A stretch of 47,327 bases of DNA, taken from positions 1-47,327 of the forward strand of contig JAMPAW010000013.1 of the NCBI GenBank assembly GCA_023666975.1. The letters are read 5' to 3'. The translations under genes were made by a program, and so were the position numbers. Positions 4,076-19,218 of this stretch are shown here, in pieces (positions within the stretch are counted from its first letter, which is position 1; each line of letters starts with the position of its first letter). The notes beneath the pieces are model-generated. The model was not told the origin of the DNA. It saw only the letters and a list, made by a program, of their open reading frames with translations, and made no database searches. Source of the stretch: Clostridium sp. (GTDB lineage Bacteria > Bacillota_A > Clostridia > Lachnospirales > Lachnospiraceae).

Positions 4076-4108
4076 AGCAAAACTCTGTTTTCTCAACTGT
4101 CCGTTATA

Positions 4109-4346
4109 CAATATAGACAAATCGCAACTGGGCACGAGTCAAGGCATACCTTTCTACTAAGCTCGGCTAAGCCTCGCTAAGTATTCAGGCATTGCGCTAT
4201 GTGTCGCTCGTAATGGTACATAAGGTGCTAAAATACAGCACCAGCCAAGGCACACTTTCACGCTAAGCTCGGAAATACCTCGCTAAGTGTTCAATGCGAA
4301 GTACCGACGGCTCCCCAATACCCTGTTTGCGATATTGTCTATATTG
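4109..4346. repeat. MITE-like or structured element with terminal inverted repeats
   Basis: CAATATAGACAAATCGCAA at 4109-4127 is repeated in inverted orientation at 4327-4346 with a single inserted base. Inside are two imperfect direct units, beginning near 4139 and 4243, each containing CTAAGCTCGG followed by CCTCGCTAAGT. A hairpin GGTGCT/AGCACC lies between them at 4224-4242. It encodes no protein. It could be a small non-autonomous mobile element or a structured RNA; no target-site duplication is obvious. Confidence 0.5.
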
Positions 4347-4415
4347 CACAACTGGATTTTATAATAATGAGTTTTGCTCATGACTATGCTGCCATTAAAG
4401 GGGTGAAATCTTGCA

Positions 4416-4505: not shown

Positions 4506-6197
4506 ATGGAAGGCGAATTGAAGATACAGTATCATGAGGAATTTAGAAAATTTATAGACGGAATGAACCATTTACAGGACGAACAGGACCCGAAAATCCA
4601 GACAATCCTGAAAGGTGTGTGCTCATTGCTGGAAGTATCCGAAATCATTGTATGGTTTTATGAGACACCGATGCGGGAGGCAATGGGACAGGGCGATTTT
4701 ATCGAATTATTTGGAACTCTGCCGAGAATGGGCAGGGAAGCCCGTATGCAGTGCCGCCATGTAACCGGCGGTGGTAATGTCGTGAGATATGATGTGTATG
4801 GGCAGGACGGGACCGGTGCGTGGACGCAGTGGCAGGAGACGGAAATCACTGCGCTTATCGATACGATATTTTCTTATCATGGCAAAATCCGGACCGGGCG
4901 CATTGCGGAAAGGCTGACCTTCTGGGACATGGATTTTTCGCTGCCGAATCTGCGCTATTATATGCGGACAATCGCAGAGAAGATTGCCAAAAAGCAATTG
5001 ATCGGGTATGTGGCGTGTGTATATAATCTCAAACGTTTTTCTGTCGTCAATGAACTGGTGGGCAGAGATACCGGAACGCAGATTATGATTCGCTATGCGA
5101 AGGGGCTGGAAGCGATGTATGATGAAGATGAATTGCTATGTCATCTCGGCGGGGATAATTTTCTGACTCTGTTTCGGGCGGATAAACTGGAAATGGTACA
5201 GAATTATTTCAGAGGGGTTCCTGTGGTATATGATGAGTTAAGTGGTGAAAGTGTTTCCGTGAGTGCCACTGCCGGATTTTATGTTATCTCGGACCTTACG
5301 GGGATTCACGGTCCAGATGACGTCATGGAGGGGGCTTACGTTTCCTCCAATATGGCAAGAAAGTCGGACAAAACGGATATTGTATTTTGGAATGAGCAGA
5401 TTCGGGAGAAACAGTTCCAGAAGAAGAAAATTGAAGATATGTTTCCCGGCGCATTGCAAAATGAGGAATTCAAAGTGTATTATCAGCCCAAATTTTCCTT
5501 GGAGGACGAGTACCGGTTAGTTGGGGCAGAGGCACTTTGCAGGTGGGTTCACGACGGAAAAATGATATATCCGGATCAGTTTATTCCGATATTGGAGCAG
5601 TCAATCAACATCTGCAAATTGGATTTTTATATGCTCGACCATGTGTGCCGGGATATCAAACGATGGCTGGATACCGGGGAGAAGGTGGTCAAAGTGTCCG
5701 TGAATTTATCGCGGAAACATTTAACAGACCAGAATTTACTGATACATATTCTGGAGATTATAGACAGCAATGAGGTGCCGCATGAGTATATCGAAATCGA
5801 GCTGACGGAGACAACGACCGATGTGGACTTTAAAGACTTAAAGCGTGTGGCAAGCGGGCTGCATGAATGTGGTATCAGCACTTCCGTAGACGATTTTGGA
5901 ATGGGATATTCTTCGTTGAATTTGATTCGCGACGTTTCGTGGGATGTGCTGAAGGTGGACAAAAGTTTTCTGCCGGAAACGGAGGATTCCAATGATGATA
6001 ATACAAAGAAAGGCATTATGCTGAAATATGTGATCAAAATGGCGCAGGAGTTAGGTCTGCAGTGCATTGTGGAGGGCGTTGAGACCGAAGAGCACATACA
6101 ATTACTGAAAAAGAACAACTGCTATCTGGCGCAGGGGTACTATTTTGACAAACCGCTTCCGGTGGAGATATTTGAGAAACGGCTGAGTGATGATTGA
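4506..6197 (+). CDS. GGDEF-EAL protein, probable cyclic-di-GMP phosphodiesterase
   Basis: 563 residues from the ATG at 4506. The N-terminal ~150 residues match nothing I recognise. A GGDEF-like domain follows with a degenerate active site, GGDNF at 215-219, so diguanylate cyclase activity is doubtful; it may bind GTP as a regulator. The EAL domain looks complete: YYQPKF, AEALCRW with EAL at 342-344, VNLSRKHL, EIELTE, VDDFGMGYSSL, LKVDKSF, IVEGVETEEH and QGYYFDKPLP. It should hydrolyse c-di-GMP in the cytoplasm. An in-frame ATG exists 63 bp upstream at 4443, but it lies in the dispersed repeat and lacks an SD site, whereas AAGGTGGGGG precedes 4506. No transmembrane segment is seen. Confidence 0.88.
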   Translation: MEGELKIQYHEEFRKFIDGMNHLQDEQDPKIQTILKGVCSLLEVSEIIVWFYETPMREAMGQGDFIELFGTLPRMGREARMQCRHVTGGGNVVRYDVYGQDGTGAWTQWQETEITALIDTIFSYHGKIRTGRIAERLTFWDMDFSLPNLRYYMRTIAEKIAKKQLIGYVACVYNLKRFSVVNELVGRDTGTQIMIRYAKGLEAMYDEDELLCHLGGDNFLTLFRADKLEMVQNYFRGVPVVYDELSGESVSVSATAGFYVISDLTGIHGPDDVMEGAYVSSNMARKSDKTDIVFWNEQIREKQFQKKKIEDMFPGALQNEEFKVYYQPKFSLEDEYRLVGAEALCRWVHDGKMIYPDQFIPILEQSINICKLDFYMLDHVCRDIKRWLDTGEKVVKVSVNLSRKHLTDQNLLIHILEIIDSNEVPHEYIEIELTETTTDVDFKDLKRVASGLHECGISTSVDDFGMGYSSLNLIRDVSWDVLKVDKSFLPETEDSNDDNTKKGIMLKYVIKMAQELGLQCIVEGVETEEHIQLLKKNNCYLAQGYYFDKPLPVEIFEKRLSDD

Positions 6198-6260
6198 GAT
6201 GTCTGCAAGAAAAACAATTCCGGTATGTCAGTTGGGAAAAAATCCCTGCACCTGTTTTCA

Positions 6261-6289
6261 TTGTAATTTCACACGGTTTATGTTATGTT
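6261..6289 (+). promoter_or_regulatory. Possible promoter of the secreted Fn3 protein gene
   Basis: TTGTAA (6261-6266), 17-bp spacer, TATGTT (6284-6289), 54 bp before the start at 6344. Both boxes are only partial matches. Confidence 0.4.
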
Positions 6290-6343
6290 AAACACAGACG
6301 TTTTGTTACTGGAGAGTGGGTTCAAAGAGAAAGGAGTATTCTT

Positions 6344-7531
6344 ATGAAAAATTTATTTAAGACGTCGGTTACTGTGTTCATGGTAGTAATGGCATTTATC
6401 GTAACCGGAATTACTTCCGAGGCAGCGGTAAGCGGTCTTGCGCAGACAAGAGATACAATATCCTCGGTAAGAGTGGATTGGCCGGCGGTAGCCGGTGCGA
6501 AATATTACGGCTATCAGGTATCCACAGATGCGGCATTCAGTAATATTGTGAATAGTGGTTCTGTTGCGAATACATATTGTTTAGCTACAGGATTGAATGC
6601 CGGGTCCACATACTATATCAGAGTGGGACATGGCACGACCAATAAGAATTGCTATGCAAACTACAGTCAGCCGTTAGAAGTGGTAACTACACCGGAGGCT
6701 TTGGCGAGTGTAGCGTTTGTCGGCGCAAATGATAACAGTGCAACGATTCAGTATGCGGCAGCGGGAGCGAATATGTATTACATTTATGAGAGTTCTTCAA
6801 ACGCATTGGTTGCGTCAACGCCGGGTACCAGTTATGCGATTGCAATGAATAATGCATCGAGCAATTCTTACAAAGTGGCAGCTGCAAGAGTATCCGCATC
6901 AGGTTACAGTGCCAATACATCAACCAAGTCCGTAACCGTTAATCTATTGACTACTAAAATTGCCACGCAGAATTTTGCAGTCAACAGTGTGCTTTCTGCT
7001 TCGAATAAGGTTAGTGTTGATGTGCTCTATTCGGGCAGCGGTGTGGAGGTTGAATTGACGAATGCCGGCGGTTCGGCTTATAAGTCGACAACGGAAAGCA
7101 AGAAAGCCTATTCCTCACTCGGTTCTTCAACCAACTATTTTCCTTATAAAGAGAACCGTTTCCTGAAATACCGCGTAAGGGCATTTGTGGATACGGATGC
7201 AGGAAGGATATATGGTTCGTGGAGTGATTACAGGGCATTTTGCGAAATGAATGGAAAATACAGCAAGGCAAAGGGGAAGGTCAACCTGAAATGGACAAAA
7301 TTAAAAGGAAGCGGCAAGGTCAAAGTATCCGTTTCCACGAAAAAGTCTTCCGGTTTTAAAACGTTCAAGACGTTGAAGGGAAGTGCAACAAAGGTTACCG
7401 TCAACAAATATGGAAAGCAATCCTTGAAGAGTAACAAAAAATATTATATCCGTGTTACTCCAATGGTAAAGATTAACGGTAAATATGTTGCCAGTGACTA
7501 TGGTATACAGCAAGAGATTAAGATAAAATAA
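6344..7531 (+). CDS. Secreted Fn3-like surface protein
   Basis: 395 residues from the ATG at 6344, chosen because AAAGGAG lies just upstream and a signal peptide begins there (KNLFKTS, then a hydrophobic core, ending near SEAA). An in-frame upstream extension has no SD site. Domain 1 (about 27-115) is fibronectin-III-like, with WPAVAGAKYYGYQVS and GLNAGSTYYIRVG. Two weaker beta-sandwich repeats follow. The last ~80 residues are lysine-rich (VNLKWTKLKGSGKVKVSVS, KSNKKYYIRV), a style common in Lachnospiraceae exported proteins. No LPXTG motif or catalytic site is seen. Likely a cell-surface or adhesive protein; function is unknown. A strong terminator follows. Confidence 0.8.
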   Translation: MKNLFKTSVTVFMVVMAFIVTGITSEAAVSGLAQTRDTISSVRVDWPAVAGAKYYGYQVSTDAAFSNIVNSGSVANTYCLATGLNAGSTYYIRVGHGTTNKNCYANYSQPLEVVTTPEALASVAFVGANDNSATIQYAAAGANMYYIYESSSNALVASTPGTSYAIAMNNASSNSYKVAAARVSASGYSANTSTKSVTVNLLTTKIATQNFAVNSVLSASNKVSVDVLYSGSGVEVELTNAGGSAYKSTTESKKAYSSLGSSTNYFPYKENRFLKYRVRAFVDTDAGRIYGSWSDYRAFCEMNGKYSKAKGKVNLKWTKLKGSGKVKVSVSTKKSSGFKTFKTLKGSATKVTVNKYGKQSLKSNKKYYIRVTPMVKINGKYVASDYGIQQEIKIK

Positions 7532-7546
7532 AACGGGTAAAGCGAA

Positions 7547-7588
7547 GGGTGTTCATTTGCTGTCAGACAGCTTTTGAACACCCTTTTT
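7547..7588 (+). terminator. Rho-independent terminator
   Basis: GGGTGTTCA pairs with TGAACACCC, an inner GCTGTC/GACAGC stem extends the hairpin, and TTTTT follows at 7584-7588. It ends transcription of the Fn3 protein gene. Confidence 0.85.
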
Positions 7589-7627
7589 GCTGGAGGAAGA
7601 AAGATATCCTGTCGAACAGGGGAAAAT

Positions 7628-7666: not shown

Positions 7667-7690
7667 ATTGCGAAATGTAAGTTTCGCAAT
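7667..7690 (+). promoter_or_regulatory. 5'-terminal mRNA hairpin, copy 1
   Basis: ATTGCGAAA pairs with TTTCGCAAT (9 bp, 6-nt loop) and begins within a few bases of the predicted transcription start. A longer version of the same hairpin follows promoter copy 2. Confidence 0.6.
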
Positions 7691-7727
7691 CGCCGGACTA
7701 TACAGAAAGAGGAAGGGAGAGAGACAG

Positions 7728-8750
7728 ATGAAAAAAAGGATGGTTTTATGGATGCTGTTACTGCTTATAGTATGCGGCGGGAATGCACGGGCAGCAGACC
7801 TTGCGGCAAATGAAATTTTGGACAGGGCAGAAGCGGCAATGAAAGAGGTAAATGTGGTTGTGATCTGCACAAAAGAGGGGGAAGAGACGGCCATGGACCG
7901 GAATACGGGCGTGATGCATATTGAGTATGGGGCATATGGTGATACGTGGCTGGATACGAAGGCGAAGGTATCGTATATTGCAGATGGGGAGCGGTATTAT
8001 TTTTTGCCGGAAACCGATGTACAGGAAATCAACAAGGAGAATGTGGATTTGTTTGCGGATGTTGACCGTACATTGAATTATACCTGTGACGGGATTCAAA
8101 ACTATGCAATAAAGGGGGAGGACATAGCCTGTTACAAGCTTTCCGCATCCCATTCCCAGACAGGATTCCGGCGGATCGTTTATTATATTAACCGGGATAC
8201 ATACCGGATCGTGGCGGTGGAGGAATCTGTGAATAATGTTGTAACAGCCGCTTCGTGGTATGACTACCCGAAAGAAGCACTGACTGTTCCGAAAGAGATA
8301 AAGGATACGGCACTGCTTATGCCGGGCTACATGTTTTTGAAGAAAAAGATTGTCTATACAGTGGTAGAGGAAAATAACACCCGCATGCTTTATGTTGCGG
8401 ATGGCAGCCTGGCAAAGGGAAATGTTAAGATTCCCGATACCGTTAAGCTGTTTGGAGAAAGCTATGAGGTAAGATACGTAGACGAAGATGCTTTTTATAA
8501 TAACCGTAAAATAAAATCCGTTACGCTTGGCAGAAATATCCGTGGCATTGGGGAGACGGCATTTTATGGCTGCAAAAAATTAAGCAAAGTCACGATTCAG
8601 TCGAAGAAGCTTACGAAAATTGGCAAAAAGGCATTTTATAAAAATGCAAAAACCCTGCGCTTTAAGGTGCCAAAGGGGAAGAAGGTAAAATATAAGAAGA
8701 TGATTCAAAAATCAGGGATTGGTGTCAATTATGTGCTGGAACTGCTGTAA
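7728..8750 (+). CDS. Secreted protein with C-terminal BspA-type leucine-rich repeats
   Basis: 340 residues from the ATG at 7728, which follows a purine-rich GGAAGGGAGAG site. An in-frame TTG at 7668 lies inside the 5' hairpin and is not credible. The signal peptide runs to about residue 23 (KKRMVLWMLLLLIV, then ARA-AD). The middle region (about 25-220) resembles outer-layer lipoprotein-carrier-like beta folds but I cannot assign it. The last ~100 residues hold LRR_5 / BspA-type repeats: VDEDAFYNNRKIKSVTLG, IGETAFYGCKKLSKVTI and IGKKAFYKNAKTLRF. BspA-type repeats occur in surface proteins that bind host or matrix molecules. Function here is unknown. Confidence 0.8.
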   Translation: MKKRMVLWMLLLLIVCGGNARAADLAANEILDRAEAAMKEVNVVVICTKEGEETAMDRNTGVMHIEYGAYGDTWLDTKAKVSYIADGERYYFLPETDVQEINKENVDLFADVDRTLNYTCDGIQNYAIKGEDIACYKLSASHSQTGFRRIVYYINRDTYRIVAVEESVNNVVTAASWYDYPKEALTVPKEIKDTALLMPGYMFLKKKIVYTVVEENNTRMLYVADGSLAKGNVKIPDTVKLFGESYEVRYVDEDAFYNNRKIKSVTLGRNIRGIGETAFYGCKKLSKVTIQSKKLTKIGKKAFYKNAKTLRFKVPKGKKVKYKKMIQKSGIGVNYVLELL

Positions 8751-8818
8751 AAATGCGTTCTTTGTTTGGCACTTTCTTTGATGCCATCTACTTTTACATC
8801 GATTCTCTCATGCAGCAT
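8729..8818 (-). pseudogene. Remnant of a minus-strand gene (5' end only)
   Basis: On the minus strand a perfect AGGAGG (about 8825-8830) is followed by an ATG at 8818 and 29 codons beginning MLHERIDVKVDGIKES, ending at TAA 8729-8731. The last codons run antisense into the end of the preceding secreted protein gene. A strong ribosome binding site on such a short frame suggests the start of a longer gene whose remainder was lost. I do not recognise the family. It could instead be a real small peptide. Confidence 0.35.
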
Positions 8819-8832
8819 ACGATACCTCCTGA

Positions 8833-8882
8833 TATGGTTTGTAATATACTATGAACACTTAATGAGCGCAAGTGAAGCGCAG
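8833..8882 (+). repeat. Dispersed repeat, copy 2
   Basis: TATACT (8845-8850) followed by ATGAACACTTAATGAGCGC and AAGTGAAGCGC. It matches copy 1 from the -10-like box through the GAAGC motif. Confidence 0.6.
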
Positions 8883-9005
8883 ACAAGCCACTGCCTTTAT
8901 AGTACCATAATTTTCGGTTATGTTCCATATTATTTCGCGTTCTTCTTTGATTTCTTTTTCCTGCCACAAAATCTTACAGAAAAATTCACACAGAACATAA
9001 AAAAT

Positions 9006-9034
9006 ATGACAGAATGGGATTTTCATGGTAATAT
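9006..9034 (+). promoter_or_regulatory. Duplicated promoter, copy 2 (LemA operon)
   Basis: ATGACA (9006-9011), 17-bp spacer, TAATAT (9029-9034), within the 41-bp block 9001-9041 identical to 7623-7663. Confidence 0.7.
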
Positions 9035-9043
9035 AGTGTAGAC

Positions 9044-9075
9044 GATTGCGAAACTCGAAAAAGAGTTTCGCAATC
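9044..9075 (+). promoter_or_regulatory. 5'-terminal mRNA hairpin, copy 2
   Basis: GATTGCGAAACTC pairs perfectly with GAGTTTCGCAATC (13 bp, 6-nt loop), starting a few bases after the predicted transcription start. No T-tract follows, so it is not a terminator. It may stabilise the mRNA 5' end or act as an operator. Confidence 0.65.
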
Positions 9076-9106
9076 AACTAGCTTATATTCCATAAAGGAG
9101 AAAGAG

Positions 9107-10231
9107 ATGAAGAAAACGAAAATATACAGGAGCCGGGCGCTCAACACGGTATGCCTGCTCGACCGTGCCCTTTGGCTGATTCTGGTGCTGGTCTTTGCAT
9201 GCACGGTAGCCTGGGACGGACATCTTCCAGAGGTCATACAGGCAAAACCAAAGCTGTGCACATGGATACTATACATAGCATTATATGTGCTGCGGGCATT
9301 GCTGGGATCGCTGATTCCGTTGATGATATGCAAGGTGGTTTTGTATCAGATCAAAAAGCAGCTTTTGCGAAATGCCCGGTTTATTACCGTTGAGGATTTT
9401 GACTATTACCGTGACAAGCTTACCGGCCTGTCTCCGGGGATCATCAGTATTCTGGCAGACTTAAATATCGAGCGCAAAAAGGACATTTCAGCTTCCATAT
9501 TGAAGTATCGGGAAATGGGTATCCTGCAATATGAGAATAATCGGTATATGCTTGTCGGAGATGTTGAAAATGCTGCACTTCGGGAAAGTGACCGGTATCT
9601 GATCGAGGAGCTTGTTAATCCGGCCTTTGATGAAAAGGATGACGGGAAATGGGCAAAGCTTGTGGAGCAGGAAGCCATGAAGGAGGGCTATATCACAAAT
9701 CCCAATGATCCGGCCTGGCGGGAGAAAAACTACAAAAAAAGCCTGATGGGCTGCCTTAGCGGCTGTCTGGGCGGCTGTCTGACACCGATGATTCTGTTTT
9801 TTGTCGTGGGGGCACTCCTGAACAATGTCGATTTGGATAGTATGGATGCGATGATCGCGGCATTGCCGGTGGGTGCAACGGTGGGGCAGTCCATTGCATT
9901 TCTCAACCAGACACCCCGGTTTTGCATCGGGATGCTGACGGCGGTTGTGGCAATTATTATTTTTCTCGTATCGCTGGTTTTTCCGGTACTGGTTATCGCG
10001 GGTAAAATAGCGGGAGCAGTGAATAAAAAGCCTTACCAGCGGACAGAGTACGGAAACCAGATGGCGGAATATGTATTCGGAATGAAAAATTTTATCCATG
10101 ATTTTTCCAATTTGAGCGAGGCGAATCAGGAGCACATTGTCCTGTGGGACGATTATCTGATTTATGCGGTTGTTCTGGAAGAAAACCAGCAGATTATTGA
10201 TGAAATTACGAAAAGGAGAAAGAAGAGATGA
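9107..10231 (+). CDS. DUF2207-like membrane protein paired with LemA
   Basis: 374 residues with two N-terminal hydrophobic segments (about 22-38 and 54-80), a cytoplasmic region, a Gly/Cys-rich hydrophobic segment (LSGCLGGCLTPMILFFVVG, near 215-240), and another membrane segment near 285-310. The C-terminus FSNLSEANQEHIVLWDDYLIYAVVL matches the end of DUF2207 (YciQ-like) proteins, where a Trp-x-x-Tyr-Leu-x-Tyr-Ala motif is conserved. The extracytoplasmic N-terminal domain of full-length DUF2207 proteins is missing. It overlaps lemA by 4 bp, and DUF2207 genes commonly neighbour lemA. The biochemical role of the pair is not known. Confidence 0.7.
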   Translation: MKKTKIYRSRALNTVCLLDRALWLILVLVFACTVAWDGHLPEVIQAKPKLCTWILYIALYVLRALLGSLIPLMICKVVLYQIKKQLLRNARFITVEDFDYYRDKLTGLSPGIISILADLNIERKKDISASILKYREMGILQYENNRYMLVGDVENAALRESDRYLIEELVNPAFDEKDDGKWAKLVEQEAMKEGYITNPNDPAWREKNYKKSLMGCLSGCLGGCLTPMILFFVVGALLNNVDLDSMDAMIAALPVGATVGQSIAFLNQTPRFCIGMLTAVVAIIIFLVSLVFPVLVIAGKIAGAVNKKPYQRTEYGNQMAEYVFGMKNFIHDFSNLSEANQEHIVLWDDYLIYAVVLEENQQIIDEITKRRKKR

Positions 10232-10800
10232 GTACAGTTGGTATGATATTGGTGGTTGTGGCAGTAGTGCTTGTCATTTATGCGATAGCGGTTTATAACA
10301 GCCTTACTGTGCTGAAAAACCGCGTGGAAAACCAGGGCGCGCAGATAGAGGTTCAGCTTACGCGCAGGGCGGATTTGATTCCCAACCTGCTGGAAATCGC
10401 AAAGGGCTATGCCAAATTTGAAAAGAGCACGCTGGAAAATATTACAAGGCTGAGGAGCAATGTGGTAAATGCCGCAAATATGAAGGAATCTTATATGGCA
10501 AACGATGCGCTGGGAAAGGAAGTCGGACGTATTCTGGCGGTTAGCGAAAATTATCCCGAATTGAAGGCGAACAGCAATTTTATGAAGCTGCAGGAGGAGC
10601 TTGCCGAGACCGAGGACAAGATTGCCAAATCACGCCAGTTTTATAATGATGTCGTGACAAAATACAATACGGCAGTCATGTTGTTTCCCAAATCACTTTT
10701 TGCCGGACTGTTTGGATTTCAGAAGCATGAATTATTAGAAGCCTCCTCCGAGAAGAAGAAAAGTGTAGAAATTGATTCTTCGGATTTTCATCTGGACTAG
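10228..10800 (+). CDS. lemA: LemA family protein
   Basis: 190 residues. One N-terminal transmembrane helix (about 5-22) is followed by YNSLTVLKNRVENQGAQIEVQLTRRADLIPNLLEIAKGYAKFE, the diagnostic LemA region with its invariant RRADLIPNL. The rest is an extended helical bundle ending in a charged tail. LemA proteins are membrane-anchored helical proteins, N-terminus out, of unsettled function. The ATGA overlap with the upstream gene shows tight coupling. Transcription should come from the promoter at 9006-9034. Confidence 0.93.
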   Translation: MSTVGMILVVVAVVLVIYAIAVYNSLTVLKNRVENQGAQIEVQLTRRADLIPNLLEIAKGYAKFEKSTLENITRLRSNVVNAANMKESYMANDALGKEVGRILAVSENYPELKANSNFMKLQEELAETEDKIAKSRQFYNDVVTKYNTAVMLFPKSLFAGLFGFQKHELLEASSEKKKSVEIDSSDFHLD

Positions 10801-10812
10801 TGGGGAAAAGCT

Positions 10813-11313
10813 ATGAAAGCACAACGAAAGAAAAAAATCTGGCTTGGACTGTTTGCTGTTTTCGCTCTGGGATTTTTCCTTATTTCCATGTTTCCGAATC
10901 AAAGATTTCACCTGATTGGGAGCAACCTGACCGGCACAATTACGGTAACCGTGAATGGACAGCCGGTGATGCCATATCATATCACTTGTGCAGCAGGGGG
11001 AGACAGGGAAGAAAAATTAACGATCCGAAACGGGGAGGACAGTACAAGGGTTCGATGTACAGCGGCTGCCTATCATGGTTATGTTTTTGACTATGAGGTG
11101 GACACCGAAGACGGCACGAAGCATTTTCAATTTATGGTGATGAAAACCCATGATTTTGGGCCGAGGGTAAATTTTGTTTATCAGATGAACCTGAATAAAG
11201 AAGAAGAGGAATGGATTGCGTATGTCCTGCTGGACAATGAGGGTGCAAAAGGAGAGGTTTACCGGATTTTGCTTCGGGAAGACGAAACGGCGTATATACA
11301 GATGGGGCCGTAA
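10813..11313 (+). CDS. Membrane-anchored protein of unknown function
   Basis: 166 residues starting 12 bp after lemA. A basic N-terminus (KAQRKKK) and a hydrophobic segment (about 9-26) indicate a membrane anchor or uncleaved signal; the remainder is beta-rich and predicted extracellular. There is no recognised domain. Its position suggests it is the third member of the LemA operon. No terminator separates it from lemA. Confidence 0.65.
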   Translation: MKAQRKKKIWLGLFAVFALGFFLISMFPNQRFHLIGSNLTGTITVTVNGQPVMPYHITCAAGGDREEKLTIRNGEDSTRVRCTAAAYHGYVFDYEVDTEDGTKHFQFMVMKTHDFGPRVNFVYQMNLNKEEEEWIAYVLLDNEGAKGEVYRILLREDETAYIQMGP

Positions 11314-11432
11314 TGTTAGAAAACGGATATGGCAAAGAAAGGTAAAATAAGATGCCGATACGATAGTGTGGAGAATTTAAGAAGGGTGAGCAAAAAACAA
11401 AGATAAATGAAAGAAGGCAGATAATATATAGT

Positions 11433-11957
11433 ATGAAAAGAAATATAAGTGTTATTGAAGATGTAAATGGAAATCGGATTGTGATGATAAATGATATATT
11501 ATTTAAAGGACGACAAAATATTGATTGGGGCGAAGTAGAACAGTATTTAAAACAATATGTTGGGAATTTTGTTCAAATTGCTGAAAATAAGGAAATTGTA
11601 TACTTTGGAAATGATTTGCCTGATGAATATACAGGTTCTAATTATACAGCAAAGTTAAAGGGAGCGTTGGCAAAAGCAAAAGCGAATGCAGTACAGGGGC
11701 TTCCCGAAATGATAGAAATCGCAGGGAATAAAAGATTTAAGGAAAATTTGGCAAAAAAGCATGATAAAAATGCAAAACTGGGGTGGTATCGATTTAATTC
11801 TAGGTTTGCACTTCCAGTTTTTGATGATTATGGGCAAGTCTTACGTTATAATGTATTTTATGCAGAAATGGTCATAAGACATGCAGAAGATAGGAAGTTG
11901 TATTTATATGATATTATAAACATAAAAAAAGAAACGGGTACCCCGCTTGAGCCATAA
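11433..11957 (+). CDS. Orphan LPD3/PBECR-like protein (phage or conjugative polyvalent-protein nuclease domain)
   Basis: 174 residues, markedly more AT-rich than its neighbours and with a weak ribosome binding site. The C-terminal half has the pattern I associate with BECR-fold nuclease-like domains of large polyvalent proteins in phages and conjugative elements: LPDEYTGSNYT, ARAK-type helix, WYRFNSRFALPVF, then AEMVIRHAEDRKLYLYDI and NIKKETGTPL. In those elements such domains are thought to be RNase-like effectors or protective factors. Here it stands alone between the LemA operon and miaB, with no phage genes around. The family assignment is from pattern memory and should be treated as tentative. 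Confidence 0.5.
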   Translation: MKRNISVIEDVNGNRIVMINDILFKGRQNIDWGEVEQYLKQYVGNFVQIAENKEIVYFGNDLPDEYTGSNYTAKLKGALAKAKANAVQGLPEMIEIAGNKRFKENLAKKHDKNAKLGWYRFNSRFALPVFDDYGQVLRYNVFYAEMVIRHAEDRKLYLYDIINIKKETGTPLEP

Positions 11958-12025
11958 AGCTGTACGGTAAAAAACTCGCTTCTTTTAGGAAATTATATGA
12001 CAGAAAGGAAAAAAAGTCAAGAAAA

Positions 12026-13474
12026 ATGTATAATGAAATGAACTTAAGCCAAATCGATTTGAATATGGCCCCACCAGCAGAAGAACCGACCAGACAATAT
12101 TACTACATGGCAAAATGCCGGAAATGGGTGGAAGACTTTAAACGAAGAAATGGGCGCTCCCCCAGCTTCCATGTGATTAATTTCGGTTGCCAGATGAACG
12201 CCAAGGACAGCGAAAAGCTGGAAGGGATTCTGGAAACCGTAGGCTATGTCAAAACCGACAGTGAGGATGCGGATTTCGTGCTGATTAACACCTGTACGGT
12301 CCGTGAAAATGCAAACTTACGTGTCTATGGCCGATTAGGGCAGTTGAAAAAATATAAGAAAAAGAACCCGGATATGCTGATTGCCCTTTGCGGCTGCATG
12401 ATGCAGGAGAGCCTTGTAGTAGAAAAAATCAAACAGAGCTACCGCCATGTGGACATTATTTTCGGTACGCATAATGTATTTAAACTGGCAGAATTGATCG
12501 AGAACAAATTAAATTCCAAAGGCATGGTCATTGATATCTGGGAGGGTACTTCCGAGATCGTTGAGGATTTGCCCAGCGACCGCAAATATGACTTTAAATG
12601 CGGTGTCAATATTATGTTTGGTTGTAATAATTTTTGCAGTTACTGCATCGTGCCGTATGTCCGGGGGCGGGAGCGGTCCAGAAAGCCGGAAGATATCCTG
12701 GGGGAAATCCGTGATTTGGTTGCGGACGGTGTCGTGGAAGTCATGCTCTTAGGACAAAATGTCAATTCCTATGGCAAAAATCTGGAAGAACCGATTACCT
12801 TTGCACAATTGCTGGAGCAGGTGGAACAGATCGAGGGATTAAAGCGGATTCGTTTCATGACTTCCCACCCGAAGGATTTATCCGATGAGTTGATTGAAGT
12901 GATGGCGAAGTCAAAAAAAATCTGCCGGCATCTTCATTTGCCGGTGCAGTCGGGAAGCACGAAGGTGCTTGCGGATATGAACCGCCGTTATACGAAAGAG
13001 GATTACCTCACATTAGTCGATAAGATCAAAAATGCGATACCGGACATTTCCCTGACGACGGATATTATCGTGGGATTCCCGACGGAGACGGAGGCGGATT
13101 TCCAGGATACTCTGGATGTGGTAAGACGTGTGCGCTTCGATTCCGCATTTACATTCATTTATTCCAGGCGTACCGGAACACCGGCTGCGGATATGAAATT
13201 TCAGGCAACGGAGGAACAGATTAAGGAACGCTTTGACCGGCTGCTTCAGGAGGTACAGGATATTGCAAAGGAAACCTGCGGCAGGGATCAGGGAAAGGTC
13301 ATGGAGGTTTTGGTGGAAGGACTTGATGAGCAGGACGAGAATCTGCTGACCGGAAGGATGTCCAATAATTTGCTGGTACATTTTCCGGGACAGCAGTCGT
13401 TGATTGGGACTTTTCAGAACGTGAGGCTTACAGAGGCGAAAGGGTTTTATTATATCGGGGAATTGGCGGATTAA
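12026..13474 (+). CDS. miaB: tRNA-2-methylthio-N6-dimethylallyladenosine synthase MiaB
   Basis: 482 residues. It methylthiolates i6A37 of tRNAs reading UNN codons, using two [4Fe-4S] clusters and SAM. The N-terminal UPF0004 domain has Cys55 (NFGCQMN), Cys90 (NTCTVREN) and Cys124 (CGCMMQ). The radical-SAM motif is Cys200-x3-Cys204-x2-Cys207 (FGCNNFCSYC), followed by VPYVRGRERSR. The C-terminus is a TRAM domain (VLVEGLD... LTGRMSNN). The protein ends GELAD. A 64-bp copy of its 3' end lies 3.2 kb downstream at 16591-16654, where the frame would end GELADDS. An upstream SD-like GAAAGGA lies rather far from the ATG, so the start is less certain. Confidence 0.96.
   Translation: MYNEMNLSQIDLNMAPPAEEPTRQYYYMAKCRKWVEDFKRRNGRSPSFHVINFGCQMNAKDSEKLEGILETVGYVKTDSEDADFVLINTCTVRENANLRVYGRLGQLKKYKKKNPDMLIALCGCMMQESLVVEKIKQSYRHVDIIFGTHNVFKLAELIENKLNSKGMVIDIWEGTSEIVEDLPSDRKYDFKCGVNIMFGCNNFCSYCIVPYVRGRERSRKPEDILGEIRDLVADGVVEVMLLGQNVNSYGKNLEEPITFAQLLEQVEQIEGLKRIRFMTSHPKDLSDELIEVMAKSKKICRHLHLPVQSGSTKVLADMNRRYTKEDYLTLVDKIKNAIPDISLTTDIIVGFPTETEADFQDTLDVVRRVRFDSAFTFIYSRRTGTPAADMKFQATEEQIKERFDRLLQEVQDIAKETCGRDQGKVMEVLVEGLDEQDENLLTGRMSNNLLVHFPGQQSLIGTFQNVRLTEAKGFYYIGELAD
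13407..13470 (+). repeat. 64-bp direct repeat, copy 1 (inside miaB 3' end)
   Basis: Identical at 63 of 64 positions to 16591-16654 (A versus G within CTTAC[A/G]GAGG). The two copies bound a 3.1-kb block holding the surface protein gene. Confidence 0.95.
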
Positions 13475-13566
13475 CCCTGTGGGGATTTGGCTGTTTTTAC
13501 AGGGGAAATTCCGGCAGGGATAAAAAGGGATGCATAAAATGAGATTTTGCTTTTATACTGGTAAAA

Positions 13567-13623
13567 TATGTGATATAATATGAACACTTAGTGAGCACAA
13601 GTGAAGCGCAGTGCGAGCTTAGT
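13567..13623 (+). repeat. Dispersed repeat, copy 3
   Basis: TGA-TATAAT (TATAAT 13574-13579) followed by ATGAACACTTAGTGAGC and AAGTGAAGCGC, ending in GAGCTTAGTG. About 100 bp upstream of copy 4 in the same orientation. Confidence 0.7.
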
Positions 13624-13669
13624 GTGAATATATATCTATCCACTTAGCAAGGTGTTTTCGAACTTAGTG

Positions 13670-13725
13670 GATATGATATAATAGGAATACTTAGTGAGCA
13701 CAGGCGAAGCGCAGTGCGAATTTAG
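13670..13725 (+). repeat. Dispersed repeat, copy 4
   Basis: TGA-TATAAT (TATAAT 13677-13682), then GGAATACTTAGTGAGCAC and GGCGAAGCGCAGTGCG. It lies 80-135 bp before the surface protein start and could supply its promoter. Confidence 0.7.
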
Positions 13726-13804
13726 GAAAAAACCTGATAATTGTTTTTCAACGTAGGAATGCAATATCGGGTTTTATTAATTTAAGCATTGAAAGGAGAA
13801 GAGT

Positions 13805-16483
13805 ATGATGAAAACGAAGAAGAAACGATGGGCAGGCCTGCTGGCTCTGGTGATGGTATTTTCCCTGCTGTACCTGCCGGGTGGGATGGTTGCCAGGGCG
13901 GCAGAGGATGATAGTGGACAGGTCGATTATATTTTCTATTTTGATGCAGATGAGGGAAAGATTTATAAGGCGACGGAGTTTACTTATGAGAATGCTGCTT
14001 CATGGACACCGGAGAAGACGGAGGTATATGAGGGAGATGATTCCATTTCATGCAATGGGAAGGAATTGGTTCTGCATGATTTTTCGATAGTTGCTGCAAA
14101 TACGGCAATTGTTATCAAGGGAGATGCAGTGTTAAGATTGGAGGGTGAGAATGCCATAAAAGGCAATGTCACTCTGGCGGCTGATCTCACGATTTCCCAA
14201 TGTGGTGTGTATGCATTTGATAACCTGTCCATTACCGGAGGGGGAAGCCTGCGCATAGATGTAGTGAAACAGGCGGGGATTTATGCAAGGAAAGATTTAA
14301 CGGTAACGGATGCCACTATTTCTTCAAAAAGCGGATATGCAGGCATGGATATTGAAGGGAAGCTTACTGTAGAAGAAGCTTCTGTCACAGCAGAACAGTC
14401 GTCTGTGGTTTTGGGTATAATAGATGGCGGATTGATTAGTAATGCATATGGCGTTCGGGTTGGCGGTGACATCACCCTGAAAAGCGGGGAGCTGCGGGGG
14501 CTTCCGAACAGCGGCAGTGCCCATGGAATTTTGGCTGGAGGGGATATAGAAATTGAAAGCGGAACTTTGGAGGGAAATGCGCCGGCAAGCTTGAGTTCGC
14601 AGGGGGTTAGTGCGGTCGGCAGCATAAAAATGAAGGCTGGTATACTAAAGGCTTCTGCGGCTGCGGCAAAAGGCACAGGTGCAGACGATAGTTTGGCGGT
14701 TGCGATATATGCCGATAAGGCCATACAGATAGAAGGCGGAGCCGTAGAAGGCACAGTGCAGGGAATGTACCGTGAGGACATACGGGTTGATGTAAGGGCA
14801 GTATATGCGGGTGCAGACATAGTGATGAACGGAGGAAGCCTGAAAGCGGAAGCGAGCATGGTTGACGGTAAGGCACCTGGATATACGAGGGCGGTTTATG
14901 CCAAAGGCGATATAGTGGTAAATGGAGGGACTTTGGAAAGCCGTGCATCTTCGGAGGGCAGTACGGTCGGTGATACTACACGGGCTTTTTTGGCAGACGG
15001 CAATATTGAGGTAAACGGGGGAATCGTAGAGGGTACGGCTTACACAGGAAGAAGTGCCCAATATGCCCAAACACAGGCTTTTTATGCTACACAGGCGATA
15101 CTGCCCGGTGATAATGAAAAGGTGGTTGGCGGTTCAGCTAAGGATGCGCTATATGCGGCAGTTCAGCTTGAGGCTGGCAGGAAATATTATATAGACAGCG
15201 CAACGGCAGAAGCATGTGGCTATATCAAATTTACCACACCCGTTTCCGGCATCGAAAGCACCTCGCCGACGAACCCCAATATTGTCATTGGCGGCTCGAC
15301 GGATTTAGATGTAACGGTGGTACCGGATAATGCATCCAATCCGAAAGTGGACTGGACATCCAGTGATGACACGGTTGCTTCGGTGGATGAGGACGGAAAA
15401 GTGACCGGCCATAAGCCGGGAACCGTAACGATTACGGCAACAACAGAAGACGGCGGACTGAAGAAGGAATTTACGGTCACGGTATCCAAAAAAGACGGTG
15501 CGGCAGCGCCAACCGGCATTACCGGGGTTGCCCCGACTGCGCCGGGAGGAAGTGACGGGAAGCTTACCGGTGTGGCTCCGACGATGGAATACAGCACGAA
15601 CAAAGATTTTACGGCTGCGAAGCCCTGTACCGGCAGCGAGATAACCGGTTTGCCGGCAGGTACCTACTATGTACGTGTCAAAGAAACGGATACGACCAAG
15701 GCAAGTGCCGGAGCCGAGGTGACTGTTCCGGATGGCAAGACGGGCGGCACAGGTTCCGGGGATGCCAATACAGACCAGGCCGTTGCCGACAGCCTGGGGG
15801 TATCGGTAGATACCGCAAAGCAGATTATTGACGAGGCAGCCAAATTGGGCGTTTCAACCGATACGCTTTTGATTACCGATGCGAGCATTAAGAACCAGAA
15901 ATCGGATGCGGACTTAAAGGGCTCCACCTTTGGAATGCTGAAAGCAAGAGCCACGAATTTAAAGAAGAATGCCATCACCATTAAATGGGACAAGGTAAAG
16001 GATGCAGACGGCTATATCCTTTACGGCAACAAATGCGGCAAGAAAAATACCTATAAGCATATTAAGACCTTTACGAAAAACAGTACCGTAAAGTATACGC
16101 AGAAGAAGTTAAAGAAAGGGACTTATTATAAATATCTGGTAATTGCCTATAAAAATATCAATGGTGCAAAGGTGACCATTGCGGCAGCAAAGACCGTTCA
16201 TGCAACGACGAAGGGCGGCAAGTACGGTGTGGCAAAATCCGTAAAGGTCAATAAAACAAGCAAGACACTGGCTGTTTCAAAAACCTTTAAGATCAAAGCA
16301 TCAGAAGTAAAGCAGGATAAGAAAATCCGCCAGCACCGTGAGATAAAATTTGAGTCGGACAACAGCGAAATTGCTACGGTAAGCAGCAAGGGTGTTGTAA
16401 CGGCGAAGAAAAAAGGAACATGCTCCATTTATGCCTATGCGCAAAATGGTGTTTATAAAAAGATAAAGATTACGGTAAAATAA
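13805..16483 (+). CDS. Large secreted surface protein with beta-helix-like repeats, Big_2 and Fn3-like domains
   Basis: 892 residues, start chosen for AGGAGA 6 bp upstream. The signal peptide is KKKRW plus a hydrophobic core, cleaved near ARA-AED (about 33). Residues ~215-420 carry seven imperfect repeats of the type GGDI-x4-GGxLxx, at about 219, 244, 270, 303, 334, 366 and 397, as in right-handed beta-helices or carbohydrate-binding surface proteins. A Big_2 domain lies at ~478-562 (DNASNPKVDWTSSDD, GKVTGHKPGTVTITA), a GTYYVRVKETDTTKAS repeat at ~568-648, an Fn3-like domain at ~715-800 (ITIKWDKVKDADGYILYG) and a second Big_2 at ~808-892. No sortase motif is seen. Likely a cell-surface or matrix protein; ligand unknown. 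It sits inside the block bounded by the miaB repeat. Confidence 0.85.
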   Translation: MMKTKKKRWAGLLALVMVFSLLYLPGGMVARAAEDDSGQVDYIFYFDADEGKIYKATEFTYENAASWTPEKTEVYEGDDSISCNGKELVLHDFSIVAANTAIVIKGDAVLRLEGENAIKGNVTLAADLTISQCGVYAFDNLSITGGGSLRIDVVKQAGIYARKDLTVTDATISSKSGYAGMDIEGKLTVEEASVTAEQSSVVLGIIDGGLISNAYGVRVGGDITLKSGELRGLPNSGSAHGILAGGDIEIESGTLEGNAPASLSSQGVSAVGSIKMKAGILKASAAAAKGTGADDSLAVAIYADKAIQIEGGAVEGTVQGMYREDIRVDVRAVYAGADIVMNGGSLKAEASMVDGKAPGYTRAVYAKGDIVVNGGTLESRASSEGSTVGDTTRAFLADGNIEVNGGIVEGTAYTGRSAQYAQTQAFYATQAILPGDNEKVVGGSAKDALYAAVQLEAGRKYYIDSATAEACGYIKFTTPVSGIESTSPTNPNIVIGGSTDLDVTVVPDNASNPKVDWTSSDDTVASVDEDGKVTGHKPGTVTITATTEDGGLKKEFTVTVSKKDGAAAPTGITGVAPTAPGGSDGKLTGVAPTMEYSTNKDFTAAKPCTGSEITGLPAGTYYVRVKETDTTKASAGAEVTVPDGKTGGTGSGDANTDQAVADSLGVSVDTAKQIIDEAAKLGVSTDTLLITDASIKNQKSDADLKGSTFGMLKARATNLKKNAITIKWDKVKDADGYILYGNKCGKKNTYKHIKTFTKNSTVKYTQKKLKKGTYYKYLVIAYKNINGAKVTIAAAKTVHATTKGGKYGVAKSVKVNKTSKTLAVSKTFKIKASEVKQDKKIRQHREIKFESDNSEIATVSSKGVVTAKKKGTCSIYAYAQNGVYKKIKITVK

Positions 16484-16484
16484 T

Positions 16485-16586
16485 ATGGCATTATCCCAGA
16501 ACAAAATTTATGAAATTGCAATGCAGCAGTCAGCCTATGACTGCTGCTGCCATGTGGAGGATTTTACAAAAGATTATTGGGAGTAA
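16485..16586 (+). pseudogene. N-terminal fragment of a truncated gene (possibly GNAT-like)
   Basis: A 33-codon frame starts 2 bp after the surface protein stop: MALSQNKIYEIAMQQSA, then DCCCHVEDFTKD, and stops at 16584-16586. This resembles the start of GNAT-type acetyltransferases of Clostridia, where a Q-S-A-x-D-x-x-C-x-x-E-D-F pattern is common; this is from memory. It has no ribosome binding site and is cut 5 bp before the second miaB repeat, so it looks like debris from the rearrangement. It also contains a 10-bp GCAGCAGTCA hairpin. Confidence 0.4.
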
Positions 16587-16590
16587 TTTA

Positions 16591-16654
16591 GGACTTTTCA
16601 GAACGTGAGGCTTACGGAGGCGAAAGGGTTTTATTATATCGGGGAATTGGCGGA
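16591..16654 (+). repeat. 64-bp direct repeat, copy 2 (miaB 3'-end remnant)
   Basis: Matches 13407-13470 at 63 of 64 bases. In the miaB frame it would read on as GELADDS and stop at 16662-16664. An in-frame TAA at 16584 just upstream shows the remnant is not expressed. Confidence 0.95.
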
Positions 16655-16660
16655 CGATTC

Positions 16661-16688
16661 TTGACAAACATTGCGCTTATGGTAAAAT
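16661..16688 (+). promoter_or_regulatory. Promoter of leuS
   Basis: TTGACA (16661-16666), 16-bp spacer, TAAAAT (16683-16688). The -35 box overlaps the stop codon of the miaB remnant. Confidence 0.6.
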
Positions 16689-16788
16689 AAACAGGTTAGG
16701 AAAAGCATGTATTTTTCAATGATGAATAACTGATAACAAGGAAAATATACGGGGCAGGCCCTGATGATATAATGAGGAGGACATAATC

Positions 16789-19218
16789 ATGGCAACAGCA
16801 TATAATCACAAGCTGATTGAAGGCAAATGGCGTAAGAAGTGGGAAGAGAATCCGATTAACGTGGAGGACGGAACAAAGCAGAAATATTACTGTCTGGATA
16901 TGTTTCCGTATCCGTCAGGTAACGGACTCCATGTAGGACATTGGAGAGGATACGTGATATCGGACGTTTGGAGCCGTTATAAAATGATGCAGGGATATTA
17001 TCTGATTCATCCGATGGGCTGGGACGCATTTGGTCTTCCGGCGGAGAACTATGCGATTAAGAACGGCGTACATCCGGCAATTTCCACTGCGGAAAACGTG
17101 AAGAATATTAAGAAGCAGATTAACGAGATTGCGGCAATTTATGACTGGGACAGAGAGGTAAATACTACGGACCCGGACTACTATAAATGGACACAATGGA
17201 TTTTTGTCAAAATGTTTAAGGAGGGGCTTGCCTATGAGAAGGAGATGCCGATTAACTGGTGTCCGTCCTGTAAGACCGGTCTCGCTAATGAAGAGGTTGT
17301 CGACGGTAAGTGTGAGCGCTGCCACTCTGAAGTGACAAAGAAAAATCTGCGCCAGTGGATGTTGAAGATTACGGCTTATGCGGACAGGCTGCTCGCCGAT
17401 TTGGATAAACTGGACTGGCCGGAAAAGGTTAAGAAAATGCAGTCGGACTGGATTGGAAAATCCTATGGTGCTGAAGTTGATTTCAAGGTGGATGGAAGTG
17501 ACGAGAGCATTACCGTATATACGACCAGACCGGATACATTGTGGGGAGCAACTTTTATGGTACTGGCACCTGAGCACGAGCTTGCAGCCAAGCTGGCAAC
17601 GGAGGAGACGAAGGAAGCCGTAACGCAGTATATTTATGATGCTTCGATGAAGTCCAATGTTGACCGTATGCAGGATAAGGAAAAGACAGGTGTGTTCACC
17701 GGTTCCTATGCGATTAATCCGTTAAATGGCAAGAAGACACCGATCTGGCTTTCTGATTATGTTCTGGCGGATTATGGTACCGGAGCAATTATGTGTGTGC
17801 CGGCTCACGATGACCGTGATTTTGCTTTTGCCAAAAAATTTGATTTGCCGATTATACAGGTTATCGCCAAAGACGGAAAAGAGATAGAAAACATGGAGGA
17901 GGCCTATACGGAGGCGAACGGAACCATGATTAATTCCGGTGATTGGAACGGAATGGAGTCGGCTGTGTTAAAGCAGGAAGCTCCTGCGATGATCGAGAAA
18001 AAAGGCTACGGGAAAAAGACGGTCAATTATAAGCTGCGTGACTGGGTATTTTCCCGTCAGCGTTATTGGGGCGAGCCGATTCCGATTGTCCACTGCCCGG
18101 AATGCGGTGCTGTGCCGGTTCCTGAGGAGGAACTGCCGGTGCTGCTTCCTGATGTTGAGAAATATGAACCGACCGGAACAGGGGAATCGCCGCTGGCAGC
18201 AATAGACGCATGGGTAAATACGGCTTGTCCCTGTTGCGGAAAGCCGGCAAAGCGAGAAACCAATACGATGCCGCAGTGGGCAGGCTCGTCATGGTATTTC
18301 CTTCGCTATGTAGATAATAAGAATGAGAAGGAACTGGTAAATAAGGAGAAGGCGGATAAATATCTGCCTGTGGATATGTATATCGGTGGTGTAGAGCATG
18401 CAGTACTGCATTTGCTATATGCCCGTTTCTATACCAAGTTTTTACATGATATCGGTGTGGTGGATTTTGACGAGCCGTTTAAGAAGCTGTTTAATCAGGG
18501 TATGGTCTGCGGACGCGATAAGGAAACCGGTGCCGCAACTAAAATGAGTAAGTCATTAGGAAATATTGTTTCGCCGGACGAAATGGTTCGTGATTACGGT
18601 TGCGATGCCCTGCGGATGTATGAACTGTTTATCGGACCGCCTGAGCTTGATTCCATCTGGGATGACAGAGGAATAGACGGGGTATATCGTTTCCTGTCGA
18701 GATTTTACAATATGGTCATCGGTAATATTGAAAATCCGGGCAAGGAAACAAAGGAGCTTTTAAAGCTTCGGAACAGAATGGTATATGATATTACCACCCG
18801 TTTGGAGAGTTTTTCTCTGAATACCGTGGTTTCCGGTTTTATGGAATACAATAACAAATTTGTAGAACTGAGCAAAAAGGGTGGTGTCGATACGGAGACG
18901 CTTAAGACAGCAGTGCGGTTGATCGCTCCATTTGCACCGCATATCGGTGAGGAACTCTGGGAACAATTGGGAGGAACGGGTACTGTGTTTGCCACAGGAT
19001 GGCCGGCCTATGAAGAAACGGCGATGAAAGATGACGAGATTACCATTCCGGTCCAGATTAACGGCAGAACAAGAGCAACGATTGATATTGTTGCAGAAGA
19101 GGAAAAAGATTCGGTTCTGGCAAAGGGAAAAGAAGCTGTTGCAGATAAACTGACCGGGCTTAATATTGTCAAAGAGATATATGTACCGGGCAAAATTGTC
19201 AATATTGTTGCAAAATAG
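16789..19218 (+). CDS. leuS: Leucyl-tRNA synthetase
   Basis: 809 residues, the usual bacterial length. Class I synthetase that charges tRNA-Leu and edits mischarged products. The HIGH motif is HVGH at 48-51 within FPYPSGNGLHVGH, and KMSKS begins at 585. A zinc-binding insertion (CPSC... CERC near 160-190), the CP1 editing domain (TTRPDTLWGATF and the DYGTGAIMCVPAHDDRD stretch) and the C-terminal anticodon-binding region (VQINGRTRATI) are all present. A GAGGAGG site precedes the ATG. No T-box is found in its short leader, unlike leuA in this window. Confidence 0.98.
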   Translation: MATAYNHKLIEGKWRKKWEENPINVEDGTKQKYYCLDMFPYPSGNGLHVGHWRGYVISDVWSRYKMMQGYYLIHPMGWDAFGLPAENYAIKNGVHPAISTAENVKNIKKQINEIAAIYDWDREVNTTDPDYYKWTQWIFVKMFKEGLAYEKEMPINWCPSCKTGLANEEVVDGKCERCHSEVTKKNLRQWMLKITAYADRLLADLDKLDWPEKVKKMQSDWIGKSYGAEVDFKVDGSDESITVYTTRPDTLWGATFMVLAPEHELAAKLATEETKEAVTQYIYDASMKSNVDRMQDKEKTGVFTGSYAINPLNGKKTPIWLSDYVLADYGTGAIMCVPAHDDRDFAFAKKFDLPIIQVIAKDGKEIENMEEAYTEANGTMINSGDWNGMESAVLKQEAPAMIEKKGYGKKTVNYKLRDWVFSRQRYWGEPIPIVHCPECGAVPVPEEELPVLLPDVEKYEPTGTGESPLAAIDAWVNTACPCCGKPAKRETNTMPQWAGSSWYFLRYVDNKNEKELVNKEKADKYLPVDMYIGGVEHAVLHLLYARFYTKFLHDIGVVDFDEPFKKLFNQGMVCGRDKETGAATKMSKSLGNIVSPDEMVRDYGCDALRMYELFIGPPELDSIWDDRGIDGVYRFLSRFYNMVIGNIENPGKETKELLKLRNRMVYDITTRLESFSLNTVVSGFMEYNNKFVELSKKGGVDTETLKTAVRLIAPFAPHIGEELWEQLGGTGTVFATGWPAYEETAMKDDEITIPVQINGRTRATIDIVAEEEKDSVLAKGKEAVADKLTGLNIVKEIYVPGKIVNIVAK

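Follow-up and report, generated by a model that had tools for sequence, protein, structure and literature searches.

The window, by which we mean the whole stretch of DNA analysed, is an entire contig of 47,327 bases. The nearest relative found was G001, a metagenome bin (contig CAMWYM010000027.1, G001:C27 below), with MiaB and LeuS at 89% and 96%, respectively. From miaB to leuS, we annotated the following features, with the evidence in brackets:

12026..13474, + strand: miaB, 482 aa (Radical_SAM, UPF0004 and TRAM; 89% to G001)
13407..13470, + strand: copy 1 of a 64-base repeat, the in-place 3' end of miaB (sequence match, blastn)
13471..16590, + strand: block between the two copies, absent from this place in G001 (G001:C27 aligns collinearly over window 11993-13467 and again from 16656, with unrelated DNA in between)
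13568..13622, + strand: dispersed intergenic hairpin repeat, unit 1 (87% to unit 2; relatives elsewhere in the genus)
13671..13725, + strand: dispersed intergenic hairpin repeat, unit 2 (87% to unit 1; relatives elsewhere in the genus)
13805..16483, + strand: gene for a surface-type protein, 892 aa, with a Cthe_2159-like stretch (87-352), Big_2 and a C-terminal module common in the genus (Pfam, protein comparisons)
16485..16586, + strand: 33-codon stub, codons 2-30 of which resemble the N-termini of 255-277-aa GNAT-type proteins before the likeness stops (protein comparison)
16591..16654, + strand: copy 2, the miaB 3' end in its displaced position, joined to the promoter region of leuS (sequence match, blastn, reading frame)
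16656..16788, + strand: leuS upstream region homologous to G001 (-35 TTGACA at 16661, -10 TAAAAT ending at 16688)
16789..19218, + strand: leuS, 809 aa (Pfam; 96% to G001)

The two copies, 13407-13470 and 16591-16654, were identical at 63 of 64 bases, the sole difference being an A at 13432 in copy 1 and a G in copy 2; a longer alignment of 67 bases gave 97% identity. Using the 64-mer as a blastn query against the window, we obtained full-length matches at the two copies only (E 1e-32 and 3e-30), far above the next-best match of 11 bases (E 0.49), which excludes a chance origin of the repeat. The miaB stop codon (13472-13474) lies outside the sequence common to copy 2. In the miaB frame, copy 1 reads to GELAD and copy 2 to GELADDS, each followed by a stop codon. 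Copy 2 ends at 16654, 134 bases ahead of the leuS start codon and with a good leuS promoter behind it, and the leuS-upstream DNA homologous to G001 starts at 16656, one base farther on. The match, the two endings and the abutment on the leuS promoter had been described in a sequence-only reading of this DNA, and the alignment, the blastn search and the reading of the frame bear out each of them. The same reading took GELADDS for the ancestral end of MiaB, which did not hold. The final DS is encoded by promoter DNA of the leuS side, so that GELADDS is a fusion end and offers no evidence for an old, longer MiaB. Among the best 120 of 7,990 MiaB proteins (representatives of 90% clusters, including the MiaB of the window), none ended in GELADDS or DDS; the G001 protein ends in GELA.

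In G001, miaB and leuS also lie on one contig, in the order and on the strand seen in the window, approximately 11.3 kb apart. The window and G001:C27 were collinear over 6279-7598 and 11993-13467 (81% at the DNA level), and then through leuS from 16656 onward (86%, with further blocks to 33543). The left limit of homology, at 13467, falls within the last miaB codons, four bases before the stop codon, and the right limit, at 16656, falls five bases ahead of the leuS -35 box. The DNA between these limits, 3,188 bases in the window versus 11,344 in G001, is unrelated. In G001 it encodes methylguanine methyltransferases, BlaI/BlaR1-type proteins, isochorismatase, HxlR, and leucine-rich and solute-binding proteins. 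The two limits correspond to the two halves of the copy-2 junction, and copy 2 is the sole sequence seen where they meet. Limits at these positions, with unrelated DNA between them, indicate that in copy 2 the end of miaB has been attached to the promoter of leuS. From copy 2 and the homology limits in G001, we infer that miaB and leuS were once in contact, and copy 2 with the leuS promoter appears to be the best candidate for the empty site.

Other variable DNA was noted in both genomes. In the miaB-leuS interval of G001:C27, an HxlR-type regulator lies between two ORFs of 169 and 87 aa that each gave a match to the isochorismatase family; these ORFs are perhaps an intact and a broken gene. 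A relative of window 6194-7531 lies close to miaB in G001:C27. Window 7668-11313 contains more variable genes, mostly absent from G001:C27 (encoding an LRR_5 protein, a DUF2207-type protein and a LemA protein), and window 4077-4377 is a further repeat of the dispersed intergenic kind, matched dozens of times across many G001 contigs.

The neighbourhood of miaB and leuS is rare among relatives. A MiaB genome scan, from which the best 80 loci were kept (most titled Lachnospiraceae or other Clostridia), placed leuS within the flank of miaB (up to 10 kb) at 0 of the 80. The genus of G001 comprised 26 draft genomes, 23 of which gave miaB, 25 leuS and 22 both; the two genes shared a contig in one of these 22, namely G001, although in drafts their presence on different contigs does not disprove linkage. 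Downstream of miaB, mutS was found within 1 kb at 34 of the best 80 loci and farther on at 12; the examined flank contained none at 26, and 8 loci have less than 1.5 kb of flank. Within the genus, 12 of 23 miaB loci had mutS in the downstream flank (up to 1.5 kb). Given this rare linkage and the frequent mutS, the miaB-leuS junction looks lineage-specific and derived in the G001/window lineage. The sequence-only reading had proposed, as the simplest history, an ancestral junction into which a block was placed. The neighbourhood with different DNA placed into it is upheld by the shared order and strand, the unrelated G001 filler and the coinciding limits, whereas the counts give no support to a junction that is old or common. 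On the same counts, a miaB-leuS operon common to the family was rejected. A reciprocal exchange shifting the former leuS neighbours to mutS was rejected as well: in G001, mutS is located on a separate contig, and the regions upstream of leuS in G017, G014 and G003 gave no shared sequence in tblastx at 1e-10.

At 21 of the 25 genus loci, the DNA ahead of leuS was readable for approximately 1.5 kb; three others were shorter, and G002 was read separately. Neither the block nor a direct miaB-leuS junction was seen in the genus loci compared (one genome per species). The comparison of relatives that had been suggested for finding an empty site with a GELADDS-type MiaB yielded neither, and no donor allele, parent allele or second example emerged from the 26 genus genomes, the best 80 miaB loci and the best 120 of 7,990 MiaB proteins.

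The copying was recent. An alignment of 61 bases to G001 showed 10 differences for copy 1 and 9 for copy 2. Each of the nine also occurs in copy 1, and a single base sets the two copies apart from each other. The copies would therefore have parted late, in the lineage of the window itself, unless their likeness is maintained by conversion. The A/G difference at 13432 is synonymous (Thr codon), and copy 2 has the base of G001. Across eight relatives, this base is G in four (G001 included), A in two and T in two, a spread that does not clearly polarise the change.

The cargo described in the sequence-only reading, an 892-residue surface ORF, two dispersed repeats and a gene fragment, is all present, the repeats measuring 55 nt each and the fragment being the GNAT-like stub. 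A protein search returned eight relatives of the surface protein, the top three 54-66% identical and the G001 protein among them. Partial matches occurred in 22 of the 26 genus genomes, mostly via the C-terminal module; among the matches listed, only G001 and G017 had near-complete relatives. In G001, the related gene lies elsewhere, at G001:C3:65865-68346, matching window 13770-15486 (73%) and 15800-16482 (80%) and leaving 15487-15799 unmatched. The GNAT-type likeness of the stub stops approximately 16 bases short of copy 2, and those bases have no recognised origin. The surface gene and the GNAT-type gene were rejected as a conserved pair: the surface gene of G001 has a different gene behind it, and the GNAT-type gene of that genome lies on a separate contig. 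At the left of the block, the repeat units (13568-13725) form CACTTAGTGAG...CGAGCTTAGTG hairpins adjoining TATAAT. Their RNA fold had a z-score of -4.2, with 0 of 200 shuffles equally stable, and no match in Rfam at E 0.1. DNA from 13471-13800 used as a query matched 11 of the 26 genus genomes, and in G026 the copies stood in tandem. The units were rejected as block ends, since both sit in the left part. To judge from its matches, the block appears to be resident-type DNA.

Genomic islands and ICEs that enter gene 3' ends regenerate the gene end and leave the displaced copy as a direct repeat. The anatomy here is alike: miaB is open to its end, and the direct repeats at both block ends restore the gene. 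The block could accordingly be pictured as a decayed or trans-mobilised integrative element with the miaB 3' end as its attachment site and copies 1 and 2 as its ends, the regenerated end on the element side and the displaced end beside the old neighbour; the unlike filler that G001 has at this position would suit this picture. However, no integrase, conjugation or phage genes were found here, and one end is a broken gene. Pfam detected no integrase, transposase or other mobility domain in the block ORFs of 80 aa or longer, seven in total: the surface protein had Ig-like/Cthe_2159 domains only, and the six antisense ORFs had none. The earlier statement that no integrase is present was thus confirmed, and the earlier likening to integrative elements holds for the anatomy but finds no gene or end in its support. 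Inverted pairs of at least 18 were absent from 11000-19000 (0 found), where a transposon or IS would show terminal inverted repeats and a transposase. In the G001 filler, nine of the 11 ORFs (at least 60 aa) were scanned with Pfam, the 492-aa and 76-aa ORFs being outside the scan, and no mobility domain was detected in those nine. The genus leuS loci compared had no miaB-end copy beside leuS, and the cargo is one long resident-type gene with a broken stub. A literature search found no report of miaB as an attachment site; the portion of PMC4482086 on rare insertion targets among tRNA-modification genes names mnmE, the MiaB-like rimO and rluA, and miaB does not appear in that portion. We regard an integrative element as very unlikely, and the repeat is most likely a scar of common DNA recombination, not a new mobile element.

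Our favoured explanation, to which we give slightly better than even weight on the sequence comparisons, is an insertion-duplication by ordinary recombination at a direct miaB-leuS junction. The parent chromosome would have had its last miaB codons running straight into the leuS -35 region, of which copy 2 and the leuS promoter would be the remnant. The donor would have been an ordinary chromosomal fragment from an allele or strain having the surface-protein gene and the beginning of a GNAT-type gene downstream of miaB. On its recent entry at the junction, one end of the fragment would have been joined via homology in miaB, and the other, in the broken GNAT-type gene, would have attached just within the 3' end of miaB with no real homology. 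Two routes may be envisaged: a circularised fragment could have integrated by one crossover within the 64 shared bases, or the fragment could have entered by homology-facilitated illegitimate recombination (HFIR). Either would produce an intact miaB, the block, a second 64-base miaB end and an untouched leuS promoter, and would make an integrase unnecessary.

Homology at one end only is what we observed: the left join lies inside miaB, and on the right the broken GNAT-type stub stands against miaB 3' DNA. According to passages of PMC3240628, HFIR combines homologous joining at one end with illegitimate joining at the other, mostly at 3-10 bp of micro-homology; linear DNA also circularises and integrates by single crossover; and the products of HFIR usually come with a deletion of comparable size. 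The likeness to these processes (PMC3240628) lies in one homologous and one non-homologous end and no dedicated enzyme; the difference is that the products described there mostly carry a deletion, whereas here 64 bases are duplicated and the donor and parent were not found. ATTGGGA is a candidate micro-homology near the join, yet a shared 7-mer also turned up in 638 of 20,000 pairs of stretches drawn at random from the window. The duplication fits single-crossover integration better than HFIR, yet 64 bases is a short homology.

The main rival is a deletion sealed by a 64-base templated filler. In such an in-cis rearrangement, the surface gene and an entire GNAT-type gene would already have stood behind miaB, and a later deletion between that GNAT-type gene and the leuS promoter would have been sealed through template switching, with 64 bases taken from the miaB end approximately 3.1 kb upstream; alternatively, a tandem duplication would have been followed by deletion. 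The stub, copy 2 and the leuS junction would then stem from one complex event that requires no donor or empty site, and GELAD would be the native end, comparable to the short, varied ends of relatives (GELA, GELV, GTLM). However, the copied stretch must stop by luck at the miaB end, where homology to G001 also stops, and the identical limits of the G001 filler are left unexplained. Under insertion at a direct junction, copy 2 would be expected to stop at the miaB end with leuS upstream DNA one base later, while a randomly copied stretch need not end there. We consider the in-cis rearrangement rather unlikely, though worth serious weight.

The window has been seen once, its MiaB cluster having one member on one contig, and the join might therefore have been made by the assembly. 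In that case, two real strain alleles from a mixed sample, miaB-leuS and miaB-surface gene-GNAT-type gene, would have been merged, and the exact duplication would exist in no cell. The single-base difference between the copies, as two strains might show, and the stub breaking off at the join are consistent with this. On the other hand, miaB and leuS are also neighbours in G001, so that the contig does not join distant places, and the match runs 25 bases to the left and 38 to the right of the single difference, which does not suggest a simple overlap pattern. We judge an assembly join improbable.

The 5' end of miaB also bears a trace of change. Just upstream of it lies a 174-aa gene of no known family (11433-11957), present in 61 of 299 family genomes, with 2,069 proteins at E 0.001. 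The protein model (pLDDT 91.7) resembles phage polyvalent-protein domains. In window 11433-12030, a conserved opposite-strand promoter just behind the gene was detected at 33 of 35 loci versus 92 of 5,000 controls, and a conserved stretch (...AAACCCATTTCTT) at 30 of 30 loci versus 19 of 5,000 controls; the AAACCCATTTCTT motif and promoter patterns were chosen after viewing the sequences, so the controls show strength and are not a blind test, and among the 35 loci at least one pair, L007 and L210, seems to represent a single place. The gene looks like one for a toxin-like protein with a predicted antisense RNA on the minus strand at 11950-12010. Compared with five genus relatives, the MiaB of the window is unlike them before GCQMN (0.11-0.21) and alike after it (0.85-0.95). 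A remnant of the 174-aa gene is retained in G001, and at three other loci, L027 and L031 (9100-10230) and L211, a broken miaB 5' end lies upstream of the module. From these comparisons, the module seems to have replaced the miaB 5' end (window 11433-12190), the first ~53 codons, in an ancestor that the window shares with G001. These two genomes are also the pair in which miaB seems to have come to lie beside leuS. The 3'-end scar might then be a second trace of a selfish module living on miaB: breakage of miaB by such a module, or the joint transfer of miaB with it, would have led to the move beside leuS, the direct join and the later 3' duplication. We hold this chain of events to be very doubtful.

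Returning to insertion-duplication, a further parallel is found in the type VI secretion (T6SS) clusters of Vibrio cholerae, in which, as part of PMC5361080 describes, older gene parts are displaced behind new modules, with HFIR-like entry via a conserved upstream anchor proposed. Both cases have an old downstream part shifted behind new DNA and no integrase; there, whole immunity genes are kept (PMC5361080), whereas here a 64-base gene end is retained and the cargo is a surface-protein gene. The displaced miaB end by itself opens no long-standing question. The locus indicates that a surface-protein gene can enter between two housekeeping genes of a gut-type Clostridia bacterium with neither harmed and no mobile element in sight. 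The scar lets the order of events be read, providing a worked case for separating recombination scars from integrative elements.
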